Of a stretch of DNA of 64,000 bases, positions 5,493-17,288 are shown in pieces. The number at the start of each line of letters is the position of its first letter. Within the stretch, counting starts at the first letter, position 1. Below the pieces are notes generated by a model that was not told the origin of the DNA, ran no database searches, and worked only from the letters and a program-made list of their open reading frames with translations. The stretch comes from Alteromonas stellipolaris (GTDB taxonomy: Bacteria; Pseudomonadota; Gammaproteobacteria; Enterobacterales; Alteromonadaceae). The stretch lies in assembly GCF_001562115.1 (NCBI RefSeq), contig NZ_CP013926.1, positions 744,001 through 808,000 of the forward strand, written 5' to 3'. The position numbers and the translations under genes were made by a program.

Positions 5493-7346
5493 ATGCGCAT
5501 TGCGACAAGCGCGACAGTATGTTTATTTTTATATTGTGTTGGTATCAATGCTAACGAAAAGGAAGATTCTGAAGTTATTGAAATTTATGGAAACTTTCAA
5601 CCTTCAGCCGTTAGCCAAATGGTCAGCCCAGTATTTGTGCTATCAGCACAAGATATCCGCTCTATTGTCGGCTCCACTGCATTGGATGTATTAGCTCAAG
5701 TCCCAAGCGTCACCATTAAAAAGTCCGGTGCCGTGCAAGAAATATTTTTGCGTGGCGCAGAAACCAATTTTGTCATCGTTCAAATAGATGGGGTTCAAGT
5801 TAACAACCCTCTTGATACTCGAGGGGGTAGTTTTGACTTAGCTTCGATATCGAAAAGCGCGCTGCAACGTGTTGAGGTTATAAAGGGCGCCCAATCTTCT
5901 ATTTATGGTTCAGACGCAATAGCAGGTGTTATTAACCTTGTTACATTTACGCCCGGAGACATTGGGACAGAGCTATCAGTAGGTGTTTTGCCGAAAGGTC
6001 AAAAAGTAGCGAGCGTAAATGTTGGCGCAGATAATCTTCAAGGGAGATTTAGCTATTTAGATACCGATAGGCAACCGAATGGTGATCAACAAGAATCCTT
6101 AGAGTTCGCACTACAGGGAGATTTTGTGTTGATGGATAACAGCAGCACGCGGCTAAATGCGCGATATAGCGACTATAAACAATGGGCATACGCAGATCAA
6201 AGCGGTGGAATTGTATATGCGCCAACAAACCCTCGTGATGAAAAACGTGGCGAGTTAGTTACCGCAAGTGTCCGCCATACTCATGAAATTAACTCATGGT
6301 ACGAATTAGCTGCTCAGGCCGAGCTCTACCACATCGATGACCAATTAGTATCGGCCGGTATTGCTCCTTATACCAACGCGCCCCCGACAGAATCACAAAA
6401 CCAATATGATTATTACAAGTTACGTTGGTTGAATATGATGTCATTAAACAGTGTGCAAGTTACTGCAGGGGTGGATTACAAAAGTGAGGAAGGGGGTGCT
6501 TCGGGTTTCGTTAGTCTATTTGGTACTGACATCCCTACTGACTTTGGTATCGAACGGGACACGCTAGCGGGCTTCATAGATGCGCAATGGTCTTATGAGG
6601 CATTGACCCTATTTTCGGGTCTACGTCACGATGATGCCGAAGGTTTTGCCAGCGAAAATACATGGAAAGTTGGTGGTGTCTATCAACTCTCTAAGCAAAT
6701 ACGATTTTTTGCCAACATTGGGTCGGCGTTTAAGTTACCGAGCTTATATGCGTTAAGTAACAATATGATTGGTAACCCTGATTTGAAGCCCGAGCAGGCT
6801 ACCAACAAAGATATCGGTATTGAATGGCAAAGTGACTCGAGCGAATTAAACGCTTCTATTTTCTTTTACCACTACAAAAATCTCGTCGACTTTGATGGGC
6901 AAACTTTTTCGCTAGTCAATAGGTCAAACATCGAAGGCAGTGGTGTGGAGCTGTTTGCCAGCCATCAGCTATCAGAAGACATCGCCGTCGAAGGAGATAT
7001 CACCTATGTCAATCTTGATACAGAAAGTGGAGAGATATTAACGGGTAGACCAGAATGGCAGGGTAGGCTGGCAGTAAATTATCAAGTTACTGACAATATA
7101 AAAACGATAGCAAGACTCAATTATGTTGGCGCTACTGAGTCTACAAGCCTGTATTCGGGAGAATTTGAGCAAAGTGACTTAGCCGCTTTCAATAAAGTGG
7201 ATGTTACGACCACGTGGGATATTTCCAATCAGCATACCCTCGATTTCTACGTACAAAATATCTTCGATAAAAATTATCAAGTGGCCGTTGGCGTTCCTGG
7301 GCCTGAGCTAGGTGTAGGGCTACAACTTTCGTGGCATACAAACTAA
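5493..7346 (+). CDS. TonB-dependent receptor, small BtuB-like type
   Basis: A 617-residue outer-membrane TonB-dependent receptor. A GGGAGAAG ribosome site precedes the ATG. A signal peptide (1 to about 20) is followed by a TonB box (EVIEIYG, near 28), a plug domain (VLAQVPSVTIKKSG, then RGAETNFVIVQIDGVQ and IKGAQSSIYGSDAIAGVINL) and a beta-barrel from about 155 to the C-terminus. The size and plug resemble BtuB/vitamin-B12 and small-ligand receptors rather than the 900-plus-residue glycan receptors. No cobalamin riboswitch was seen upstream. It is the first gene of a four-gene run with a cytochrome, a dehydrogenase-like propeller and a ThuA-like protein. It may import a product of that pathway, or a metal or cofactor the pathway needs. 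Confidence 0.85.
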   Translation: MRIATSATVCLFLYCVGINANEKEDSEVIEIYGNFQPSAVSQMVSPVFVLSAQDIRSIVGSTALDVLAQVPSVTIKKSGAVQEIFLRGAETNFVIVQIDGVQVNNPLDTRGGSFDLASISKSALQRVEVIKGAQSSIYGSDAIAGVINLVTFTPGDIGTELSVGVLPKGQKVASVNVGADNLQGRFSYLDTDRQPNGDQQESLEFALQGDFVLMDNSSTRLNARYSDYKQWAYADQSGGIVYAPTNPRDEKRGELVTASVRHTHEINSWYELAAQAELYHIDDQLVSAGIAPYTNAPPTESQNQYDYYKLRWLNMMSLNSVQVTAGVDYKSEEGGASGFVSLFGTDIPTDFGIERDTLAGFIDAQWSYEALTLFSGLRHDDAEGFASENTWKVGGVYQLSKQIRFFANIGSAFKLPSLYALSNNMIGNPDLKPEQATNKDIGIEWQSDSSELNASIFFYHYKNLVDFDGQTFSLVNRSNIEGSGVELFASHQLSEDIAVEGDITYVNLDTESGEILTGRPEWQGRLAVNYQVTDNIKTIARLNYVGATESTSLYSGEFEQSDLAAFNKVDVTTTWDISNQHTLDFYVQNIFDKNYQVAVGVPGPELGVGLQLSWHTN

Positions 7347-7362
7347 CAAGGACTCAGCAACA

Positions 7363-8700
7363 ATGAAGAAACTCACTTACGCAATGACGGTGTTGGTAGT
7401 TACGATGGTGTTTAGTGTTAATGGAAACGAATTAGACACCACGCTAAGGTTAAAAAGTCAGGACGTAAAAGTAACCCAGCAAGGCCAAAAGCTGTTCGAA
7501 CAAATATGTGCATCTTGCCACGCTAAAGATTTAAGTGGCGGGACTGGGTTTAACTTAAAAGACGGCGAATGGGTGCACGGAAGTGCGCCTTCTCAGATAC
7601 TCAGTAACGTAAAGACAGGTTTTCTCAATGCAGGGATGCCGGGATTTGAGCAGGTTTTTGATGCGACGCAAATTGAAGCAATAGTGGCCTATGTATTGTC
7701 TAAACGGGAAGGGTGGGACAACCTAACTTACAAGCTATATCAACTAAACGGTGCAGACGATACGGATGTTACAGCCGATAAGTTGATAAAATCGGGTGAG
7801 TTAGCAAAGGGGCTTGCAGACTTTGCTATCCCTGAGGTTCAGCACTATTTTATTGAGTTCGAGGGTGACTTTTATGCACCTAAAGACTTGGATACACAAG
7901 TATGGTTACAGTGGGGATTCCCCCATGAACTGAAAGTTTACATTAATCATAAACAGGTGACGAAGGGCGGTACTGCATGGTTCCCTACTTGGCGTTTGGA
8001 GCGCGGTAAACAACACTTGAAAGTCACTTATCGTTCCGGCGACACAAAGCCAAATCAACGAGACCTCATACTCATCGGTACGAATTTAGATTTAACGGTA
8101 AAGCTCTTTCCGTTATCGAGTAAAGCCAAAAATATAGTGGAAGAGAAGAAGTTTGAATTAAAAGCCTCTGACCATATACTCATTCAACGAAAGCGAATTT
8201 TAGACCTACCTCCTTCCACTATTTCCGTTGGTTTCCCTACAAAAGTAAACTATGGCTTTAACACAAAGACATGCGCCGTAGTCGGTTTATGGCAGGGCGA
8301 TATGTTGAATGTTGGGCCCAATATTGCTGGTCGTGGTGAAGATCCTAGTTTGCCTTTGGGCGAGTGGGTATTTCATGCACCTGAGCAGCTTCAGCACGTG
8401 AACGAAGAACACAAGTGCCACTACAAAGGCTATCGATTAGAAAACGGTAACCCCGTATTTTCCTACACATTGGGTGGACAGCAGTACGCACTTTCAGTGG
8501 AAACTAAAAGCAGCAATACCCTCAATTTTATCTATTCGATAACAGGAAACCAGCCCATAAAGCTAAAGATTCCTGAAACCTCAAACTGGCAATGGACACA
8601 TGGGCTGCAGCCTATTGAACGGCAAAGCGCATTATTAACCCCGAAACAAAATGGGCGTGTCGTGGTTACGGCGACAGCAACCGCAACAGTGAAAGAGTAA
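7363..8700 (+). CDS. Periplasmic c-type cytochrome with C-terminal accessory domain
   Basis: A 445-residue protein with a signal peptide, then a class I cytochrome c domain. The heme attachment motif CASCH is at residues 49-53 and a likely distal Met (GMPGF) is at 92. From about 150 to 240 is a beta-rich stretch. The C-terminal part (about 270-440, with AVVGLWQGDMLNVGPNIAGRG) looks like the domain found attached to heme proteins in planctomycete-type sugar oxidation clusters. Here it sits 16 bases after the receptor and 26 bases before a sorbosone/glucose dehydrogenase-like gene, so it is the probable electron acceptor for that enzyme. The function is inferred from the heme motif and context. 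Confidence 0.8.
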   Translation: MKKLTYAMTVLVVTMVFSVNGNELDTTLRLKSQDVKVTQQGQKLFEQICASCHAKDLSGGTGFNLKDGEWVHGSAPSQILSNVKTGFLNAGMPGFEQVFDATQIEAIVAYVLSKREGWDNLTYKLYQLNGADDTDVTADKLIKSGELAKGLADFAIPEVQHYFIEFEGDFYAPKDLDTQVWLQWGFPHELKVYINHKQVTKGGTAWFPTWRLERGKQHLKVTYRSGDTKPNQRDLILIGTNLDLTVKLFPLSSKAKNIVEEKKFELKASDHILIQRKRILDLPPSTISVGFPTKVNYGFNTKTCAVVGLWQGDMLNVGPNIAGRGEDPSLPLGEWVFHAPEQLQHVNEEHKCHYKGYRLENGNPVFSYTLGGQQYALSVETKSSNTLNFIYSITGNQPIKLKIPETSNWQWTHGLQPIERQSALLTPKQNGRVVVTATATATVKE

Positions 8701-8726
8701 AACCAGCCATAAGTAGGAATGACAAT

Positions 8727-10202
8727 ATGAAATTCAAAGGATTAAAAAAAGTCGCGCTCTGCCTAGTCGGTGCAGGTTTAGTGAGTTCGCTTCAGTTGGA
8801 AGCCGCGCAAGCGCCAAAGCAGGAATACAAACCTGATGGTTATGACATTGTCACCATAGAAACCCCCAAAGATGAACGCTTCCATGTCACGGGAATAGAC
8901 AGTGATAGTGATGGGGTTATCTGGGTCGCTACCCGCTTTGGGGATGTGTGGTATTACAAAAACGATACTTGGTTTAAATTTGCGCAGGGCTTACACGAGC
9001 CGACTGGATTACTAATAGACACTGACGGAAGCCTTCTAGTTTCTCAAAAGCCAGAACTCACTCGCATTGTAGATAGTGATAAAGATGGTGTTGCCGATAT
9101 CTATCAGCCTGTCGCTAACGATTGGACATTCAATGATAACTATCATGAATTCGTCTTCGGTCCGGTTAAAGATGAACAAGGAAACCTATACGGTACGCTG
9201 AACTTGAGCCACAATAATCCTGATGCCTTTACAATGGGTGCGATGGGCTCTCCAGGGGGATATCGTGGATTTGCTTTTCAAGTGGATACCAAGGGAGTCT
9301 TTACACCCTACGCTTGGGGGTTGCGCTCTCCGGCTGGACTTGGTACCTCGCCGCAAGGGGAAATCTTCTTCACCGATAATCAAGGTGATTGGGTCCCGAC
9401 ATCTAAAATGCACTTGTTAGAACAAGGTAAGTTCTACGGTCATCCTGTGTCGCTAGTTGATGTAGAAGGTTACACGCGAGAGTCTATCAAGGAAATGTCT
9501 GTAGAGACATTTGCACAAATGAGTGAGAAGCCTGTGGTGTGGATCCCTCATGTGGAAGTGGCTAACTCGCCAGGGAATCCAGAATGGGATACCACCGAAG
9601 GTAAGTTTGGTCCATTTAAGGGCCAAATTTTCATTGGTGATCAAACTCAGTCCAACCTATTTCGCGTATTGCTCGAGAAGGTCAACGGTCAGTATCAAGG
9701 CGCAGTCATCAACTTTATGAATAAATTTCAAAGCGGTAACATTCGCACTGAGTTTGATGTAAATGGCCAGCTATGGGTTGGACAGACTGCTCGCGGGTGG
9801 GGGGCGCAAGGTGGCAAACCATTTGGGCTACAAAAAGTAGTATGGGATGGCACTATGCCCTTCGAATTGCATTCTATTACGCTGACTGAAACAGGGTTTA
9901 GAATGTCGTTTACCGATACCTTATCTTCTGAGACTGTTGTTAAAGAAAGCCTTAAAGCCCAATCATGGCAATATCATTACTCTAGTAGCTATGGCTCGCC
10001 TAAGGTGGACTTGTCTACGTTGCCGATTACTAATGTTGTTTTGTTAGATGATGGAAAAACCATCGACGTAACACTGCCATTAACTTCGGGCAAGGTGGTA
10101 CAAATTGATTTCACAGGTCTGAAAGATGTTAACGGGCGTTCAGTAAGTGTTGACAAGGTTTACTATACGCTCAACCAGTTGCTCGCGAGTAAGCAGCAAT
10201 GA
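8727..10202 (+). CDS. Secreted sugar-dehydrogenase-like beta-propeller protein
   Basis: A 491-residue exported protein (signal peptide ending near LEAAQA). Residues about 45-360 show repeated propeller-like blades (GVIWVATRFGDVWYY, PTGLLIDTDGSLLVS, GLRSPAGLGTSPQGEIFFTDNQG) as in the glucose/sorbosone dehydrogenase and planctomycete membrane-bound dehydrogenase-like families. A DSDKDGVAD stretch looks like a calcium loop. The last ~110 residues form a separate beta domain. It overlaps the next gene by 4 bases (ATGA). It probably oxidises a sugar or uronate in the periplasm and passes electrons to the cytochrome upstream. The cofactor (PQQ or none) cannot be judged by eye. Confidence 0.72.
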   Translation: MKFKGLKKVALCLVGAGLVSSLQLEAAQAPKQEYKPDGYDIVTIETPKDERFHVTGIDSDSDGVIWVATRFGDVWYYKNDTWFKFAQGLHEPTGLLIDTDGSLLVSQKPELTRIVDSDKDGVADIYQPVANDWTFNDNYHEFVFGPVKDEQGNLYGTLNLSHNNPDAFTMGAMGSPGGYRGFAFQVDTKGVFTPYAWGLRSPAGLGTSPQGEIFFTDNQGDWVPTSKMHLLEQGKFYGHPVSLVDVEGYTRESIKEMSVETFAQMSEKPVVWIPHVEVANSPGNPEWDTTEGKFGPFKGQIFIGDQTQSNLFRVLLEKVNGQYQGAVINFMNKFQSGNIRTEFDVNGQLWVGQTARGWGAQGGKPFGLQKVVWDGTMPFELHSITLTETGFRMSFTDTLSSETVVKESLKAQSWQYHYSSSYGSPKVDLSTLPITNVVLLDDGKTIDVTLPLTSGKVVQIDFTGLKDVNGRSVSVDKVYYTLNQLLASKQQ

Positions 10203-11134
10203 CGCTCAGTGAACGTCGCATTCGGACATGCATATTGTTTGCTATCACCTGCCTGCTCATGGCGTGTGTTTCACAATATATAGCGCCTGAGCCTAAAAAA
10301 GTGTTGATCGTAGATGGTCAAAACAACCATCCTATCTGGCCAAAATCAACGGCAATGATGAAAGCTTTTTTGGAAGGAAATGGACAGTTCGTCGTTGATG
10401 TTTATCGAACGCAATATACTTGGCGGGGAGATAAGTGGCTTGAGCAGTATCCGGCCAATGACGGCCGTGAGCATCAATCAATGTCCCAAGCTAAAACAGA
10501 CCCCTCGTTTTCCCCCGACTTTGCGCAGTACGATGTGGTTATCTCTAATTTTGGTTGGAAGGCCGCGCCATGGCCACCTGCAACCCAGCGCAAATTTGAG
10601 CAGTACATGCAAAACGGAGGCGGTTTCGTGTCGGTGCATGCTGCCAATAATGCATTTCCCAATTGGCTTGAATACAACAAAATGATTGGCCTAGGTGGTT
10701 GGGGAGGGCGAAACCAAAAAGATGGGCCTTATATTTATTACAACGACGATGGTGAATTGCAGCGCGATATGTCAGCAGGACAGGGCGGCGGACATGGTTA
10801 TATACACGAGTTTACTATACAGGTAAGGCATGCAACTCATCCCATAATGCAGGGGCTGCCTAGCAATTGGCTGCATAGCAAAGATGAATTATATAATCGC
10901 CTGCGGGGACCTGCAGAAAACTTAACAGTGCTAGCTTCGGCGTACGACAACAAAAAATATAACGGATACGGGCGGCACGAACCTATGATTATGACCATTG
11001 ACTATCATCAAGGAAGAGTGTTTCACACAACGTTGGGTCATGGTGAAGCGGTCTATTCTGATCCTACTTTTATGTCGATATTGGCTAAAGGGGTTACCTG
11101 GGCAGCGGGCACTAATCATGAGGGGCTGCGATAA
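10199..11134 (+). CDS. ThuA-like domain lipoprotein
   Basis: A 311-residue protein with a lipoprotein signal (CLLMAC) and a ThuA-like fold over about residues 33-300: KKVLIVDGQNNHPIWPKS, YDVVISNFGW, GGGFVSVHAANNAFP, and the late HTTLGHGEAVYSDP. ThuA-type proteins are glutamine-amidotransferase-like and are linked to oxidised disaccharide use (trehalose utilisation in rhizobia). Translation is coupled to the propeller gene by ATGA. In this operon it probably acts on the oxidised sugar. The catalytic role is not established for this subgroup. Confidence 0.78.
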   Translation: MTLSERRIRTCILFAITCLLMACVSQYIAPEPKKVLIVDGQNNHPIWPKSTAMMKAFLEGNGQFVVDVYRTQYTWRGDKWLEQYPANDGREHQSMSQAKTDPSFSPDFAQYDVVISNFGWKAAPWPPATQRKFEQYMQNGGGFVSVHAANNAFPNWLEYNKMIGLGGWGGRNQKDGPYIYYNDDGELQRDMSAGQGGGHGYIHEFTIQVRHATHPIMQGLPSNWLHSKDELYNRLRGPAENLTVLASAYDNKKYNGYGRHEPMIMTIDYHQGRVFHTTLGHGEAVYSDPTFMSILAKGVTWAAGTNHEGLR

Positions 11135-11192
11135 AAAACGAAGTTATTATTGTGCTATGGTTGGTTGCTACAAGCTTAATGAACACCGGTTG

Positions 11193-11221
11193 ATAGCGAC
11201 AGGTTTTTAACCTGTCGCTAT
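11193..11221. terminator. Bidirectional hairpin between convergent genes
   Basis: A perfect 13-base stem (ATAGCGACAGGTT / AACCTGTCGCTAT) with a TTT loop lies between the stops of the rightward ThuA-like gene and the leftward cohesin-like gene. There is no long U tract, but the position suits a shared terminator. Confidence 0.65.
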
Positions 11222-11236
11222 ACGATAAATGACTTA

Positions 11237-11776
11237 TCAGCGGTTAAATCGGCGTACGCCAATAAATGTGATAGCAACCATCAATATAATACTCAAGGTG
11301 TTGGGTGCAATTACGTTTACCGCATTAACAGTTGCCGACGCTTGCCCGCTATCTATTGCAACATCTAACTCCCCAACGACAAATTCAGCAGCAATGATAT
11401 TTTCCATGTTGAAGTTGCTTTGCCCTGCATCGAGAGCATTTACGCTGAATCTAACAATTGTGAAATCGCCACCGGAAAACGCGACAAAGTCTAAATAAGC
11501 CACCGCGACACCAAACGCCTGAGGTGTCACATTGAATATAAACGGTAGTGAATCGTATAAGTCCCCGCCTATGGAAAGTGCATCAAGCTCAAATAAATCA
11601 GTATCAAACGCAATATCTAAGCTCAAAGTGTCGAAGTTTGTAAATCCTGTGCCTATTACCGAAACCTCTACGGTATCGCCAACAATAACGTTGCTAGTAT
11701 CAAGCTCAATACTAATGAGTCCAGCTTGAGCTTGAAAGCCAATTAATAGCGTAATAAAAGTAAACAGTTTTTTCAT
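11237..11776 (-). CDS. Cohesin-like domain protein with PEP-CTERM-like C-terminus
   Basis: A 179-residue protein. A signal peptide (1 to about 18, ending QAQAG) is followed by one cohesin-type beta domain (about 20-150): an opening strand pattern VIVGDTVEVSVIG, then FDTLSLDIAFDTDLFEL, a classic cohesin signature. The tail (IAPNTLSIILMVAITFIG then RRFNR) is a short Pro-containing motif, a hydrophobic segment and basic residues, like a PEP-CTERM sorting signal although the motif is APN rather than PEP. It lies 34 bases downstream of the GH86 gene, which ends in a dockerin-like domain, so it is probably the anchor for that enzyme. The cohesin call is from pattern only. Confidence 0.72.
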   Translation of the reverse strand: MKKLFTFITLLIGFQAQAGLISIELDTSNVIVGDTVEVSVIGTGFTNFDTLSLDIAFDTDLFELDALSIGGDLYDSLPFIFNVTPQAFGVAVAYLDFVAFSGGDFTIVRFSVNALDAGQSNFNMENIIAAEFVVGELDVAIDSGQASATVNAVNVIAPNTLSIILMVAITFIGVRRFNR

Positions 11777-11810
11777 TCAATTGTGTTCCTGTAAGTGGTT
11801 ATTTAGCGAC

Positions 11811-14800
11811 TTATTCCGTTTCTTCTTTTACGCATCGAGCACGGGTACATAAGGCCATCATGGCGCGAGCGTCTAGAATATTAACGAGGCCATCATTGTT
11901 GATGTCGAAATTGGGAGGGACATCCTGACGGGCTTGTATTGCGGCCAGAAGTCCGCTGATATCAGCACTGTCTACATCGGCGTCACCATCCCAGTCACCG
12001 AATAACGCTGCAGGTGCGACCACATTTAACGGTGCAATGCCTTGAATTTTATAGGTGCTGCCGTCGGTTGAGATAAATTGCGCAAACAGGAAGTAAAAAT
12101 GCCCCTCAGGTAACGCTTGGGTTGGGGGAATACCACTAAGTGGCAACGACACCTGTGCAGTACCGCTCTGTTTACCAATAGCATTAGGATCGGATACCAC
12201 GATGTCGTTAAACGAACGTGACCAAGTTTGATCCATTTCCCTTAGGAAAAATTTTACGCCACCAAGCTCGTCGGTTACGGTTTGTCCCTCGCCGGCTTCA
12301 AAAAACGCAGTGACATCAAGAGTGCCATTGTTGCTATATGTGCTAGAAAGGTACTTACTCTCATCATCTAAGGCCAGACTAGGTTTAACCGTATCTTCAC
12401 TTGGCACGATAGTAATAGGGTAAGCTGCCACGCTTTCGGTGTCACCAGAGGATGAGCGCACGCGCACAAACAAAAAGTAAAATTCACCGTTGGTTAAGTC
12501 CTCGCTGGGCGTAAGTCCTGACAGAGGAATGTAAACTGTAGAAGTGCCTTTCTGTGTTCCAATAGCGGTACTGTCCGTCACTTTGATATCACTAATGACT
12601 GTCCAGTTGCTCGCCATGTGCCGCAACAGGTAATTAATACCGCCTAAATCAGCCGTTACCTCAAAGCCCGTGCCAGCGTCATATTCAGTAGTGACTTGCA
12701 TATTTTTATCTAAATGGAATTCAAGCGTTTCATATTTTTGAACATCATCAAAACTTATCGATGTTTGCGTGGGCTCTTCAACGGTTATCTTGGTGGTTGC
12801 CGTAAAATTTCCATCACGTGATGTGGCAGTGATAGTCACATCACCAACGTTCAGGGCTGTTACCATGCCATTGCTATCGACCATAGCGACTGATTCATCG
12901 CTAGACGCTAAATTGAAACTTTGATCACTAGCAAAAAAGGGCGTGACGGATGCGGATAGTTTTAATGTAGCTCCGATGGCGAGCGTAGCGTTGTCAGGGC
13001 TAATATACATGCCGGTAACTGCGCCGCCATCCGGTCTGATCTCTTGGTCAAAACCAAACACTTTCATATTAACGCTGGCAATGTGGCCTCCCGTATCGGG
13101 GAAGGTAATATCGATTTGGTTATCGTTTTTAAGTAATGAATAGGGAACCGGAATTTCAAGTAACCCAAAAAAGCGGTCTCTTCCTAATTGTTCGTCTCCG
13201 CTAATACGTGCATTCGAAGTGAGTAACTGACCATTGAATCTCACTTCTGGTGAAAGTGATTGACCATGGTCTCTGCCGAGCGCTATGCGCAGAATTGATT
13301 CACCTAGGGAGGTGGTTTGAACCCCTTTTATTTCAAATTGATTAACTTGATTGGCGTCTATTTCTTTTAAGTACTCTGTTGCAAAGTACTTGTTTTCAGT
13401 GGATAGGCCATTGATGTTCAAATCGGCGTCGTAACTATATTCGACCACTATCGTTGCTTCTGGCGCTAGCTCGAAGTGATCGAGGCCCAACGGAGCATTA
13501 ATAATATCTAACTGCGGCGCATTATTGGCTAGATATAAATGTTTAACTTTTATGTTTTGAACCTTGGCACCTGAAGTACCATGTTGATGAAGTAATATGG
13601 TTTCGTTGTCTTCAGTCAGGTTACTGAAAATAACGTACAACTTTTCCTTGCTGACATAGCTGTCTATCAATATATCTTCGTTGGTAGTAAACGAATCTAC
13701 ACGTGTCCCTTGCACGTCAGACCAAAGCTCATAGAACTTCACCATTTCAGTGAACACCCAGTGCTCACCTTGTTCTCCTTCGCCCTCTTTAGCTTGACGA
13801 AGTAAGCGCCAGTTATAAGGAAAACCGTTTCTAGTTCCCCATAATGCTTTTACGGTGACAAAAGGAATTGCTTTGCTGATAGCATCTGGACGATCCATAA
13901 ATTGCATCATCATGGGGCTGGCGGTTTTAAGAAACCACCAGTCTCTCAGCGGTGTCCAGGGGGCATTCTCTAGGGGGCGATTACGGCCGCCGTATTCTGA
14001 AATGACATGTTCTTTGGTTTTACCCAGAGTGAGCAGAGAATAATGATCCATCATATCTAATGTGGCTTCAATACGACTACCCTTGAACCGGTTGTCATCT
14101 TCTAAGTCATAAAAGTGGGTTGAATAAAAATCCATGCTTTCGCCAGCGGTATCAATGAATAACTTCATTCTTTCCCCCCACCGTGCAAAGTTACGTTCTT
14201 CGTAAATTGGGAATGCAACCGTATAGCCACCAATTTTTATGTCTTGATTGTGCTGGCGAAAGGCATTGGCAACATCTTTGTGAAAATTAAAAATATCAAT
14301 GGGAGGAATGGGCGCCTCTAAGCCCATTTCATGTGGCGCATCGGTAAGTTGATATAAAGGTTCATTTAATACCTCAAAATACGTTGGCTTCACTCGTCCT
14401 TGGGTAGAGGGTTCGCCCTCGGTACGAAAAAAAGCATTCATATATTGACCCATGAAGTCACCCACTGCATCTGCGCCATTTGCTTGCCAGCTTTGACCTC
14501 CACAGCAAGGATTTACCGTTGCAAACCAGTGCGGGCGAGGTTGCCCTCCCACCATAACGTCACCGCGGCCATCATATTTGTGAACGCTCGCGTCGTTAAT
14601 TCCATACGTGGTTTCACGAGCGAATCTACCGCGATTGACTAAGTGTGTTGGGTCGACATAACCAGGGTTGAGCGGATCTTCAGCAGACTGATTAAAGTTC
14701 CAGCCAGCACTGCCGTTTTCTCGGCCAAAATAGACGTCTAAGTCTTCCATCAAATACTTAAGCTTGTCTGCTTCTCCGTCCCAATCACTTTCTGAAACCG

Positions 14801-14960
14801 TGGAATGCAACGTAATATATTTGTGTCTATCAAAGCTGTCTTTACCTCCGACGGAATGCTTAATATTTGCATTCACCACGGCCTCTGTTTTAGCGATTAA
14901 CTCCGGCGATGATAAAGCCAGTCCTACTCCAAGTAAGGCGGAGAATAATTTGTAATTCAT
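11811..14960 (-). CDS. GH86 beta-agarase/beta-porphyranase with Ig-like domain, two repeats and a dockerin-like domain
   Basis: A secreted 1049-residue endo-hydrolase. A signal peptide (to about 24) precedes a GH86-type catalytic barrel (KHSVGGKDSFDRHKY). Likely acid/base is Glu200 (EVLNEP) and nucleophile Glu322 (VISEYGGRNRP). Beta domains follow to about 640, a BIG2 Ig-like domain at about 647-727, two homologous ~105-residue repeats at about 733-837 and 858-967 (both with a LGG...FLLR/FFLR core and a YFLFV/YFLFA strand), and a dockerin-like domain at 988-1049 with two calcium loops (DWDGDADVDSAD, DINNDGLVNILD) and a closing CTRARC. GH86 enzymes cut agarose or porphyran internally. The surrounding sulfatases favour a sulfated galactan such as porphyran. 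The cohesin-like gene is immediately downstream. Confidence 0.86.
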   Translation of the reverse strand: MNYKLFSALLGVGLALSSPELIAKTEAVVNANIKHSVGGKDSFDRHKYITLHSTVSESDWDGEADKLKYLMEDLDVYFGRENGSAGWNFNQSAEDPLNPGYVDPTHLVNRGRFARETTYGINDASVHKYDGRGDVMVGGQPRPHWFATVNPCCGGQSWQANGADAVGDFMGQYMNAFFRTEGEPSTQGRVKPTYFEVLNEPLYQLTDAPHEMGLEAPIPPIDIFNFHKDVANAFRQHNQDIKIGGYTVAFPIYEERNFARWGERMKLFIDTAGESMDFYSTHFYDLEDDNRFKGSRIEATLDMMDHYSLLTLGKTKEHVISEYGGRNRPLENAPWTPLRDWWFLKTASPMMMQFMDRPDAISKAIPFVTVKALWGTRNGFPYNWRLLRQAKEGEGEQGEHWVFTEMVKFYELWSDVQGTRVDSFTTNEDILIDSYVSKEKLYVIFSNLTEDNETILLHQHGTSGAKVQNIKVKHLYLANNAPQLDIINAPLGLDHFELAPEATIVVEYSYDADLNINGLSTENKYFATEYLKEIDANQVNQFEIKGVQTTSLGESILRIALGRDHGQSLSPEVRFNGQLLTSNARISGDEQLGRDRFFGLLEIPVPYSLLKNDNQIDITFPDTGGHIASVNMKVFGFDQEIRPDGGAVTGMYISPDNATLAIGATLKLSASVTPFFASDQSFNLASSDESVAMVDSNGMVTALNVGDVTITATSRDGNFTATTKITVEEPTQTSISFDDVQKYETLEFHLDKNMQVTTEYDAGTGFEVTADLGGINYLLRHMASNWTVISDIKVTDSTAIGTQKGTSTVYIPLSGLTPSEDLTNGEFYFLFVRVRSSSGDTESVAAYPITIVPSEDTVKPSLALDDESKYLSSTYSNNGTLDVTAFFEAGEGQTVTDELGGVKFFLREMDQTWSRSFNDIVVSDPNAIGKQSGTAQVSLPLSGIPPTQALPEGHFYFLFAQFISTDGSTYKIQGIAPLNVVAPAALFGDWDGDADVDSADISGLLAAIQARQDVPPNFDINNDGLVNILDARAMMALCTRARCVKEETE

Positions 14961-14995
14961 TGTTCTAGGATCCTTAATATTGATGCGTTGCTGAG

Positions 14996-15005
14996 TTGTT
15001 AACTA
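14996..15005. promoter_or_regulatory. TTGTTAACTA, near-copy of locus palindrome
   Basis: One mismatch to TTGTTAACAA, 36 bases before the GH86 start (leftward gene). Confidence 0.35.
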
Positions 15006-15045
15006 AACGTAAATCCTATTGCATGATTGTTATTTATACAATCAA

Positions 15046-15055
15046 TTGTTAACAG
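15046..15055. promoter_or_regulatory. TTGTTAACAG, near-copy of locus palindrome
   Basis: One mismatch to TTGTTAACAA, 50 bases from the copy at 14996 (about five helical turns) and upstream of the leftward GH86 gene. Confidence 0.38.
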
Positions 15056-15210
15056 TTTACTATTGTTTTTAATGGTGCTGTCCTTCTTTGCTGCCAAGGA
15101 AGGAATGGTATGTCATTGATAAATAATATTTTTAGTGGGGTTTTGGTGAGGGTTTTCTATAGGGGTTAATAGCAATGATGAAAATAAAGAGTTGATTTCA
15201 CTCTTGATAA

Positions 15211-15220
15211 TTGTTAACAA
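15211..15220. promoter_or_regulatory. TTGTTAACAA palindrome, putative operator
   Basis: A perfect copy followed by TGTGGTATC, 110 bases before the sulfatase start at 15330; it matches the arrangement at 5438. Confidence 0.48.
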
Positions 15221-15329
15221 TGTGGTATCTGGAGTTGTGCTGAATTCTAGTGATTGGTAGATGGTGAACCTTATTGCTATCTATCTAAAATGCTCATTTA
15301 CTTATTAAATTCTGAACAGGTTCCTAGCA

Positions 15330-17288
15330 ATGAAACGTACTTGTCTCCCTATTTTTTTCCTCGTGTTAGCCATGTTTGCTCTGATCTCGTGTGCTCATGA
15401 ATCACAGGATAAAGTATTGGAAATAGCGCCTGATACTCTAACTCAGGCCCAAGACCGCAAGCTCCCCATTCTAAACACCGCCAATACTGATAAAATTCAA
15501 CCCAATATTCTTTGGATAATTACCGATGACCATCGACCGGATTCGGTATCTGCATACAATAAAGCTATATATGGGCAAAGTGATAGCCCGCTAGGGTACA
15601 TTGAATCACCTAATGCTGACCAGTTAGCCGAAGAGGGAGTGCTCTTTACCCAGGCCTTCACTAACTCCCCTGTATGTGCGCCATCGCGAGCCGCATTACA
15701 TTCTGGCAGGTATCCATTTCGTACCGGGCGATTTGCTTTTGAACTGTCCCACCCAGGCCCGGATTTTTCTAAGCCTTTGCTATCTGAATACCTAAAAGGT
15801 GCTGGCTATTACACAGCAATGTTTGGAAAAGAAGACCATTACTTCATGCAATGGGGGCCTGGTCAATCGTTCAATAAACTCCCCTTATTTGATTTTAGGG
15901 TGCACTTCAAACATGACCTGCAAAATCATGGTATTGGTGATATTTACACCCGAGCGTCATATGGCGACGAACCTGGTAATTCAACCCCTATCGGCTATAG
16001 CGAATACGTGAACTACCCAGATGGCACTAGCAGAAGCTATTTAATTAAGAGTAAAGAGGGAGAGGTTAGTGAGCAGGATCTTCAATTGCGAAGCAAGACC
16101 GATGAAGAATTTGATATTTTACGAAGTTATACACGCAGCAATCCCAACCTCATCATCGGTGGCGTAAATCCCAACACGGCTACTGAAACCATTGATGCGA
16201 AGGTAGTTAGAGAGCTACGCAATCATTTAGAAAATGCCAAGCAAACCTACAGTACATTATCAGGTAAGCCGGCAGAAGGAGCCGATTCTGATAAGCCATT
16301 GTTCGTGAATTTGGGCTTCCATTTACCTCACACTCCTGTATTGCCGCCCAAGTCTGTAAGAGATAGGTTTAAAACAAAGGAATACAAGGTTCCAAAATTC
16401 GAATTATCTGAAGTAGAGAAGCTGCCTTTGCAACTTCAAAAAATGTATCACGCCACTAAAATTACAGGCATGACAGATGCTGAAGTTCAGCAGGCAATAC
16501 AGGACTATTATGCGTTTACTGCGCATGGCGATGAACTTATTGGCGAAGCGGTCGACGTTTTTAAAGCTTACAGCAAAAAACAAGGTCGTCCTTGGGTGGT
16601 GGTTTACACCGTGGGTGACCATGGGTGGCATTTAGGTGAGCAAGGCATTGAGGCGAAATTCGGCCCCTGGCAGCAAAGTGTAGCCAATGCTGCAATCATT
16701 ACTGCCTCTGATAAGTCTTTAGTTCCTCGTGGTTTGGTTAATCATGATTTGGTTGAATTTGTTGATTTTGCGCCGACCATACTAGATCTGGCAGGGGTCG
16801 ATATTAAGCAAGAAAGATTTAATCATTTAGATGGTTACAGCTTACTTGATGTGGCGGCTGGTGAGGCACCAAAGCGAGAGTATATCTTGGGTGAAACCAA
16901 TGTAGTGGTTGGCTCTCGTGCATACCTGCATTCAAAGCGGTTTCGTTTTTCTATGCGAACTCGACCTCCAGGCGCAGCGACTGGTGAGCGTATGCGTTGG
17001 GCGTTAGATGCAGATGCGAATGACGTCGACATGGCATTATACGATTTAGCTGTGGATCCGTTAGAGAGGCAAAATGTTGCTGATACAGAGGCCTATAGAC
17101 CTTTAGCGCTATGGCTAAGAAATAAACTAGGCAACATAGTGCTAGGCGATGGCAGAATTGAGGTGGACTGGTCACAAGAAAATAGTTATGTAGAAAGTAA
17201 TTTCGCTGAAGGTGCTGATGACAAACGGTTGGATATTCCTAAAGACTTAATTCCTTCAGTTCCTCAAAATGTGGCGACGAATAAATGA
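15330..17288 (+). CDS. Sulfatase, lipoprotein, first of a tandem pair
   Basis: A 652-residue sulfatase with a lipobox (ALISC, Cys21). The catalytic domain starts at NILWIITDDHRPDS. The formylglycine motif is canonical CAPSRAALHSGR, with the modified Cys at residue 116. Later motifs include GFHLPHTPVLPPKS and VGDHGWHLGEQG, typical of family S1 arylsulfatase-like enzymes. Maturation needs a formylglycine-generating enzyme or anSME, not found in this window. It overlaps the following sulfatase by 4 bases (ATGA) and is clearly paralogous to it. It probably desulfates galactan oligosaccharides at the cell envelope; the sulfate position attacked is unknown. Confidence 0.9.
   Translation: MKRTCLPIFFLVLAMFALISCAHESQDKVLEIAPDTLTQAQDRKLPILNTANTDKIQPNILWIITDDHRPDSVSAYNKAIYGQSDSPLGYIESPNADQLAEEGVLFTQAFTNSPVCAPSRAALHSGRYPFRTGRFAFELSHPGPDFSKPLLSEYLKGAGYYTAMFGKEDHYFMQWGPGQSFNKLPLFDFRVHFKHDLQNHGIGDIYTRASYGDEPGNSTPIGYSEYVNYPDGTSRSYLIKSKEGEVSEQDLQLRSKTDEEFDILRSYTRSNPNLIIGGVNPNTATETIDAKVVRELRNHLENAKQTYSTLSGKPAEGADSDKPLFVNLGFHLPHTPVLPPKSVRDRFKTKEYKVPKFELSEVEKLPLQLQKMYHATKITGMTDAEVQQAIQDYYAFTAHGDELIGEAVDVFKAYSKKQGRPWVVVYTVGDHGWHLGEQGIEAKFGPWQQSVANAAIITASDKSLVPRGLVNHDLVEFVDFAPTILDLAGVDIKQERFNHLDGYSLLDVAAGEAPKREYILGETNVVVGSRAYLHSKRFRFSMRTRPPGAATGERMRWALDADANDVDMALYDLAVDPLERQNVADTEAYRPLALWLRNKLGNIVLGDGRIEVDWSQENSYVESNFAEGADDKRLDIPKDLIPSVPQNVATNK

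Follow-up and report, generated by a model that had tools for sequence, protein, structure and literature searches.

Recurrent cohesin–dockerin gene pairs in Alteromonadaceae and a predicted non-covalent anchor for secreted enzymes

Cohesin and dockerin modules are established binding partners in other systems. Peer and colleagues are said to have described both kinds of module in 2009, singly and outside cellulosomes, in non-cellulolytic microbes, and the scaffoldin ScaE presumably holds one cohesin. In the excerpts available of the papers cited here by PMC number, the anchoring scaffoldins of cellulosomes are SLH- or sortase-anchored, the latter reported for ScaE (PMC12484212), ANME archaea hold many cohesins and dockerins (PMC5244752), and Saccharophagus degradans 2-40 has two dockerin-like open reading frames (ORFs) and six others with cohesin-like modules, whose binding is posed as a question (PMC2386152). 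A 2017 review calls the role of cohesins and dockerins outside cellulosomes not known (PMC5244752). In other Gammaproteobacteria, nucleases released outside the cell, M6 peptidases and a VWA protein are cargo of the GlyGly-CTERM system, each with its own anchor (PMC3237569). Here we describe a cohesin–dockerin gene pair in a 64,000-nucleotide stretch of the Alteromonas stellipolaris genome (contig NZ_CP013926.1, positions 744,001 to 808,000; hereafter the window), where a GH86-type seaweed-polysaccharide enzyme ends in a dockerin and the adjoining gene encodes a small single-cohesin protein. The pair recurs across the family, its two modules co-vary, and among the genomes surveyed the listed pairs are restricted to those with an exosortase. 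These results support the pairing and the design of an anchor for the enzyme; binding and surface location are predicted.

Recurrence and co-variation of the gene pair

We surveyed 147 genomes of the same family with a three-row dockerin profile, which matched in 82 of them. Cohesins were located with A3, a 26-row family alignment of 23 proteins that neighbour dockerins and three from the window's genome, the window protein included; dockerin and A3 counts are among the matches listed. The A3 search used 136 of 150 listed rows, omitting 14 whose match begins at profile position 45 or beyond; a full-length filter then removed five, leaving 131 full-length matches. The sequence-only reading of the window had proposed that the two modules belong together, and relatives bear this out: a full-length A3 match lies within 6 kb of 121 of the 150 listed dockerins, on the same strand in every case (121/121), and 104 of these 121 cohesins lie directly downstream of the dockerin gene, at 6-244 nt. 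Conversely, 118 of the 131 full-length A3 matches have a dockerin within 6 kb. At 24 of 30 dockerin loci returned, the window included, the gene directly downstream encodes a small secreted protein whose tail is of PEP-CTERM type. Because A3 was built from dockerin neighbours, we recounted with its 26 source loci removed, and 95 of 124 dockerins were still paired, 79 of them directly downstream.

The Pfam Cohesin model served as an independent control. Across the 147 genomes it matched at 39 places (E <= 0.1); all 12 places above its cut-off lie beside a dockerin, as do 29 of the 30 in frames shorter than 300 residues. Nine weak matches lie in frames of 469-4061 residues with no dockerin nearby (among them G083:C11:101431, G068:C1:2449699, G137:C6:1362 and G089:C21:151592), and are possibly other cohesin-bearing proteins or chance. 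Weak Pfam matches alone were set aside as evidence because at loose thresholds the models also match control genomes: of 14 such genomes, PF00963 hits 2 and PF00404 hits 9 at E <= 1, and PF00963 still hits 1 at E <= 0.1. Chance adjacency of weak profile matches would be a reasonable worry from the window's scores alone, which lie below the Pfam cut-offs; set against 121 of 150 pairings across 147 genomes, all on one strand, and 12 of 12 by an independent model, its probability is close to nil.

The pair also occurs beyond this survey. Among the matches listed in named genomes there are at least 17 dockerin loci, 12 with a cohesin, including Paraglaciecola hydrolytica S66, where the dockerin protein again carries porphyranase domains, Alteromonas sp. 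KUL106, Colwellia and Glaciecola. Two loci in Deltaproteobacteria, of which one is close to a contig end, and three in planctomycetes have no cohesin. A class-level survey of 321 genomes gave dockerin matches in 24, two of them of the same family; outside the family, a cohesin is present in 9 of 20 regions, which cover 21 of 24 dockerin places.

The dockerin partner is not confined to galactan loci, to which the sequence-only reading had tied the pair. We scanned 26 dockerin proteins (25 paired; L083 unpaired) together with those of the window's genome; several of the proteins scanned show no telling domain. The cargo includes porphyranase-type GH86 enzymes (window, L078, L125), ExeM-type or Exo_endo_phos nucleases (L012, L104, L113, L114, L119), M43 metallopeptidases (L080, L102), M9 collagenases (L080, L103), IgGFc-binding-like proteins (L089, L091, L111), a BNR_4 protein (L122), a VWA protein (L013) and PKD or PPC proteins (L108, L112, L117). 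ExeM-type nucleases, recognised by an SDHDP motif preceding the dockerin, make up 44 of the 121 pairs.

The dockerin is C-terminal in 110 of the 121 pairs, internal in six and N-terminal in five; two calcium loops are recognised by pattern in 110 and a C-x4-C tail in 100. Paired dockerins at L113, L114, L115, L119, L120 and L127 have no such tail, so it is dispensable for gene pairing. At L108, L118, L131, L195, L199 and L229 the dockerin sits near the N-terminus of a large protein and the cohesin gene lies upstream, not downstream. One cohesin gene lies between two dockerin genes at L080 (3124-10960; also L126), L086 (38-6153) and L100 (272-9380), and may provide one receptor for two enzymes; at L080 the flanking genes encode an M43 metallopeptidase and an M9 collagenase. 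At L121 (4702-5892) a 396-residue protein has two tandem dockerin matches and one adjoining cohesin gene. Outside the family, a 710-residue protein at L200 (2739-4871) has up to three dockerin-like matches, one partial, followed by a hydrophobic stretch and a basic end; from this layout it is possibly the inverse arrangement, an anchored dockerin carrier. At L027 (G071:C7:187764-187952) an in-frame TAA inside the dockerin match of the assembly reflects a truncated tail or a sequencing error.

Dockerin and cohesin distances are correlated. Over 121 pairs from 66 genomes the Spearman coefficient is 0.342, against 0.092 (sd 0.044) when partners are reshuffled within genomes, and none of 1000 reshuffles was as high. 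Nearest neighbours of dockerin and cohesin agree in 53 of the 121 pairs; 300 reshuffles give 20 on average and 32 at most. Because jointly inherited orthologous pairs would give a correlation of the same sign, we repeated the analysis on the 44 ExeM-type pairs alone, one from each of 44 genomes, as a test against orthologous co-inheritance. Here dockerin–cohesin distances correlate at 0.551, dockerin–enzyme at 0.304 and cohesin–enzyme at 0.502. The partial dockerin–cohesin correlation given the enzyme is 0.484 (bootstrap 0.37-0.59; 0 of 1000 permutations as high). Among these pairs, the dockerin tracks the adjoining cohesin more closely than it tracks the enzyme to which it is fused. The test does not remove common ancestry, because the partial cohesin–enzyme correlation given the dockerin, 0.420, is also sizeable. 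The co-variation is the pattern expected of binding partners, to which the shortness of the dockerin and residual ancestry could contribute.

These figures bear on the reading that the two genes form a conserved operon and nothing more, the cohesin fold having another ligand and not binding the dockerin. Linked genes inherited together also yield correlated distances, and cohesin–dockerin binding is here a prediction. We nonetheless find this reading quite improbable, since the dockerin–cohesin correlation in ExeM pairs (0.551) exceeds the dockerin–enzyme one (0.304), the enzyme varies while the two modules stay together, and binding between these modules is established elsewhere.

The window locus and its genome

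The features of the window locus are:

11811..14960, minus strand: GH86-type porphyranase/agarase, 1049 residues, with a signal peptide-like N-terminus and a C-terminal dockerin (ORF and Pfam)
13365..13676, minus strand: porphyranase beta-sandwich domain 1 (Porphyrn_cat_1), residues 429-532 (Pfam, E 6.7e-24)
13056..13340, minus strand: BPA_C, beta porphyranase A C-terminal domain, residues 541-635 (Pfam, E 6.8e-30)
11814..11999, minus strand: dockerin module, residues 988-1049 (Dockerin_1 match and calcium positions in 18 aligned dockerins, the window's included)
11961..11996, minus strand: dockerin calcium loop 1, DWDGDADVDSAD, residues 989-1000 (sequence and alignment)
11871..11906, minus strand: dockerin calcium loop 2, DINNDGLVNILD, residues 1019-1030 (sequence and alignment)
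11832..11849, minus strand: C-x4-C tail CTRARC, following the dockerin, residues 1038-1043 (sequence and alignment)
11777..11810, minus strand: 34-nt gap between the GH86 gene and the cohesin gene, without a terminator-like site
11237..11776, minus strand: single-cohesin protein, 179 residues (ORF, Pfam and A3 family profile)
11723..11776, minus strand: signal peptide-like N-terminus, MKKLFTFITLLIGFQAQA (read from the sequence)
11420..11713, minus strand: cohesin domain according to Pfam, residues 22-119 (E 0.0038)
11240..11314, minus strand: degenerate PEP-CTERM-like tail, comprising VIAP, a hydrophobic stretch and RRFNR (read from the sequence; no TIGR02595 match)

The ORF positions, common strand, 34-nt spacing, two calcium loops and CTRARC tail are all as the sequence-only reading had described them. 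No terminator-like site occurs in 11100-15400, against a mean of 4.0 in shuffled sequence. In the enzyme, Porphyrn_cat_1 and BPA_C both score above their Pfam cut-offs and a Big_2 domain is also present; the scan matched these accessory domains and no catalytic-domain model. Porphyrn_cat_1 and BPA_C are markers of GH86, and GH86 activity is presumed for the 1049-residue protein. In the dockerin, positions 1, 3, 5, 9 and 12 of both loops are occupied, in agreement with an F-hand-type motif, and the calcium positions are invariant or conserved across the 18 aligned dockerins. The CTRARC tail is possibly a disulfide cap. A protein search with the dockerin region returned two proteins.

The surroundings are consistent with a sulfated-galactan locus: a TonB receptor (5493) and three sulfatases (3369, 15330, 17285) are encoded nearby. 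From 5493 to 11134, beside the galactan-degrading enzyme, the TonB receptor precedes three proteins: a c-type cytochrome protein, a DUF7133 protein and a ThuA protein.

The window's dockerin piece found two further dockerins with a C-x4-C tail in the genome, three in total, each with a cohesin gene. In the second pair, an ExeM/NucH-type nuclease (NF033681, 627.6 bits) ends in a dockerin that scores 15.6 bits with Dockerin_1, below cut-off, and a cohesin-like protein of 195 residues with the tail VPAPSTG...RVKARR is encoded 3' of it. In the third, a VWA protein ends in a dockerin above cut-off (34.6 bits), and a 211-residue cohesin-like protein, encoded upstream on the same strand, has the tail VSEPATG...NRRRR, which passes TIGR02595. 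The 195- and 211-residue proteins are invisible to Pfam Cohesin and were assigned through A3.

A3 also connects the window protein to solved structures. Against the PDB, the best 23 matches of the profile (E 7.3e-14 to 0.012) are all either cohesins of scaffoldins or cohesin modules of NagJ, and the next, at E 0.1, are unrelated proteins. The single window sequence retrieved no cohesin from the PDB with phmmer, and a PF00963 search of the window's own genome gave nothing at E <= 1 or E <= 0.1. A protein annotated 'cohesin domain-containing protein [Alteromonas stellipolaris]' is 97% identical to the 179-residue one. Because the genome holds three dockerins with the same tail and A3 finds solved cohesins, both window assignments appear secure through their families, neither of them by its own Pfam score. 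The cohesin and dockerin that the sequence-only reading had called from fold patterns are thus matched by their profiles in the window, each below cut-off, and hold at the family level.

The PEP-CTERM-like tail that it had also named is there in layout: the 179-residue protein ends in VIAPNTLSIILMVAITFIGVRRFNR, with VIAPNTLS/VIAP in place of the PEP motif. The motif itself is degenerate, and many relatives read VSEP or VPEP. Within A3, TIGR02595 matches 17 of 26 members and Pfam PEP-CTERM 18 of 26 at E <= 0.1.

Sorting genes and the predicted anchor

The genome has one exosortase match, above the cut-off of the general model TIGR02602. Its gene adjoins that of an EpsB-type exopolysaccharide glycosyltransferase (TIGR03013, above cut-off), and PrsT of the XrtA/PEP-CTERM system (TIGR02917, above cut-off) lies near the third pair. 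Across the survey, each of the 66 genomes that hold a listed pair has an exosortase, as do 49 of the 81 others (Fisher 2.4e-10, uncorrected for shared ancestry). This co-occurrence agrees with sorting of the cohesin by exosortase, while falling short of showing it. The suggestion of an exosortase route for the window protein stands in that the sorting genes are present, and is weakened by the degenerate motif. We also considered dockerins as a substitute for GlyGly-CTERM where rhombosortase is missing, and rejected it: rhombosortase is in 147 of 147 genomes, 144 above cut-off. Because it is found throughout the family, neither the dockerin/cohesin nor the GlyGly-CTERM system replaces the other.

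We consider it probable that the pair is a plug-and-socket anchor, in which an exosortase-sorted cohesin holds the co-encoded dockerin enzyme on the cell surface or within the exopolysaccharide layer. The GH86 enzyme would be exported with its C-terminal dockerin, two calcium loops and cysteine-bracketed tail. The small cohesin protein would be exported separately, its C-terminal sorting signal recognised and presumably cleaved by the genome's single exosortase, fixing the cohesin domain at the surface or in the exopolysaccharide layer. There it would capture the enzyme non-covalently and in a calcium-dependent manner, and the enzyme would stay with the cell that made it. For the window, the expected benefit is a porphyranase kept beside the cell's sulfatases and TonB uptake. 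Within this genome the device would also serve the ExeM-type nuclease and the VWA protein; elsewhere in the family its cargo would include collagenases, metallopeptidases, adhesin-like proteins and further secreted proteins. With somewhat less assurance, we lean towards a general gammaproteobacterial display system of exosortase-sorted single-cohesin receptors, each beside and co-evolving with its own dockerin cargo (depolymerases, nucleases, collagenases, adhesins), with the cysteine-bracketed tail as a recognition or locking element.

Several observations weigh against the anchor. Of the 150 listed dockerins, 29 have no cohesin within 6 kb; when 25 of these loci were viewed with more flank, two had a weaker-scoring cohesin-like neighbour and the others none. 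At L231 this view gave no dockerin ORF of at least 90 residues. The dockerin-bearing proteins at L212 (G077) and L213 (G018) have no cohesin match, and no exosortase was detected in these genomes. Pfam Cohesin exceeds its cut-off at just 12 places, in 12 of the 147 genomes, and leaves 8 of 26 A3 members unmatched at E 0.1. In the window, the cohesin scores 17.8 bits (E 0.0038) against a PF00963 cut-off of 24.1, the dockerin 17.3 bits (PF00404, residues 988-1034, E 0.0057) against 22.9, and no PEP-CTERM model, TIGR02595 included, matches the tail, where the PEP motif is absent. A recognisable sorting motif is missing from 14 of 118 paired cohesins, and the genome's exosortase scores 163 bits with the XrtA-specific model against a cut-off of 208. 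At L085, where the dockerin and cohesin genes share a frame, folding as one chain (predicted TM score, pTM, 0.61) gave no scored interface; both domains fold, with ten-residue block scores of 75-97 for the cohesin part from residue 101 on and 80-87 for the dockerin. Haft 2006 (PMC1569441), in the text available, leaves the location and processing of PEP-CTERM proteins to experiment.

Two other readings keep the binding and move the destination. In one, a cohesin–dockerin complex of the extracellular matrix, the PEP-CTERM tail directs the cohesin into exopolysaccharide and enzymes are stored in the biofilm matrix instead of on the cell. The exosortase gene adjoins the EpsB-type gene, and the available text of Haft 2006 (PMC1569441) proposes an exopolysaccharide destination; we hold this as a tentative possibility. 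In the other, the cohesin acts in the periplasm or at the membrane as a private chaperone or secretion adaptor that helps to fold, hold or export the dockerin enzyme, its tail an inner-membrane tether only. One-to-one pairing, tight spacing and co-variation fit it equally, and the degenerate window tail makes a plain tether possible. Against it, Pfam PEP-CTERM matches 18 of 26 members, and every genome with a listed pair holds an exosortase, which a plain tether would not need; we judge this reading unlikely.

Comparison with known systems

The recurrence of the gene pair with varied secreted proteins points to a way, so far little noticed, in which Gram-negative cells could keep enzymes at their surface. 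In the literature, covering little of the subscription journals, we found no report of PEP-CTERM together with cohesin or dockerin, so that priority is not certain; under the same limit, exosortase with dockerin or cohesin led to the archaeal review alone (PMC5244752, available excerpt). The Paraglaciecola hydrolytica paper names neither module in its main text. If the anchor is real, it is a non-covalent alternative to fusing every cargo with its own sorting signal, assigns a specific molecular role to a group of PEP-CTERM proteins, and explains how marine Gram-negative degraders stop large secreted enzymes from diffusing away. The role of cohesins and dockerins outside cellulosomes and the fate of PEP-CTERM proteins could both be tested through one device, and about 120 naturally matched pairs (66 genomes, among the matches listed) are potential orthogonal connectors.

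The miniature cellulosome-like system that the sequence-only reading had suggested holds as one-to-one pairing. Each of the genome's three paired cohesin proteins (179-211 residues) has room for one cohesin, the cohesin ORFs listed at further loci, inside and outside the family, are all shorter than 280 residues, and the arrangement looks like an anchor for one, sometimes two, enzymes and not like a cellulosome, with no multi-cohesin scaffold seen among these proteins. As in the cellulosome of Clostridium and its relatives, the same two module folds are expected and a surface-bound cohesin is predicted to capture dockerin-bearing proteins. Unlike it, this system is Gram-negative, has a separate small cohesin protein encoded next to each enzyme gene, replaces LPXTG or SLH with an exosortase-type tail, and has partners that are mostly not cellulases. 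It differs from non-cellulosomal single modules in that the gene pair recurs, its two modules co-vary and the cohesin bears a sorting tail. Saccharophagus degradans 2-40 is likewise a marine gammaproteobacterium, and its description, in the excerpt available, reports neither gene pairing nor a link to PEP-CTERM or exosortase (PMC2386152). With PEP-CTERM/exosortase (PMC1569441) and GlyGly-CTERM/rhombosortase (PMC3237569), as far as the accessible texts go, the pair shares a putative C-terminal tripartite sorting signal; in contrast to both, similar cargo here carries a dockerin and the sorting signal sits on a separate cohesin protein.

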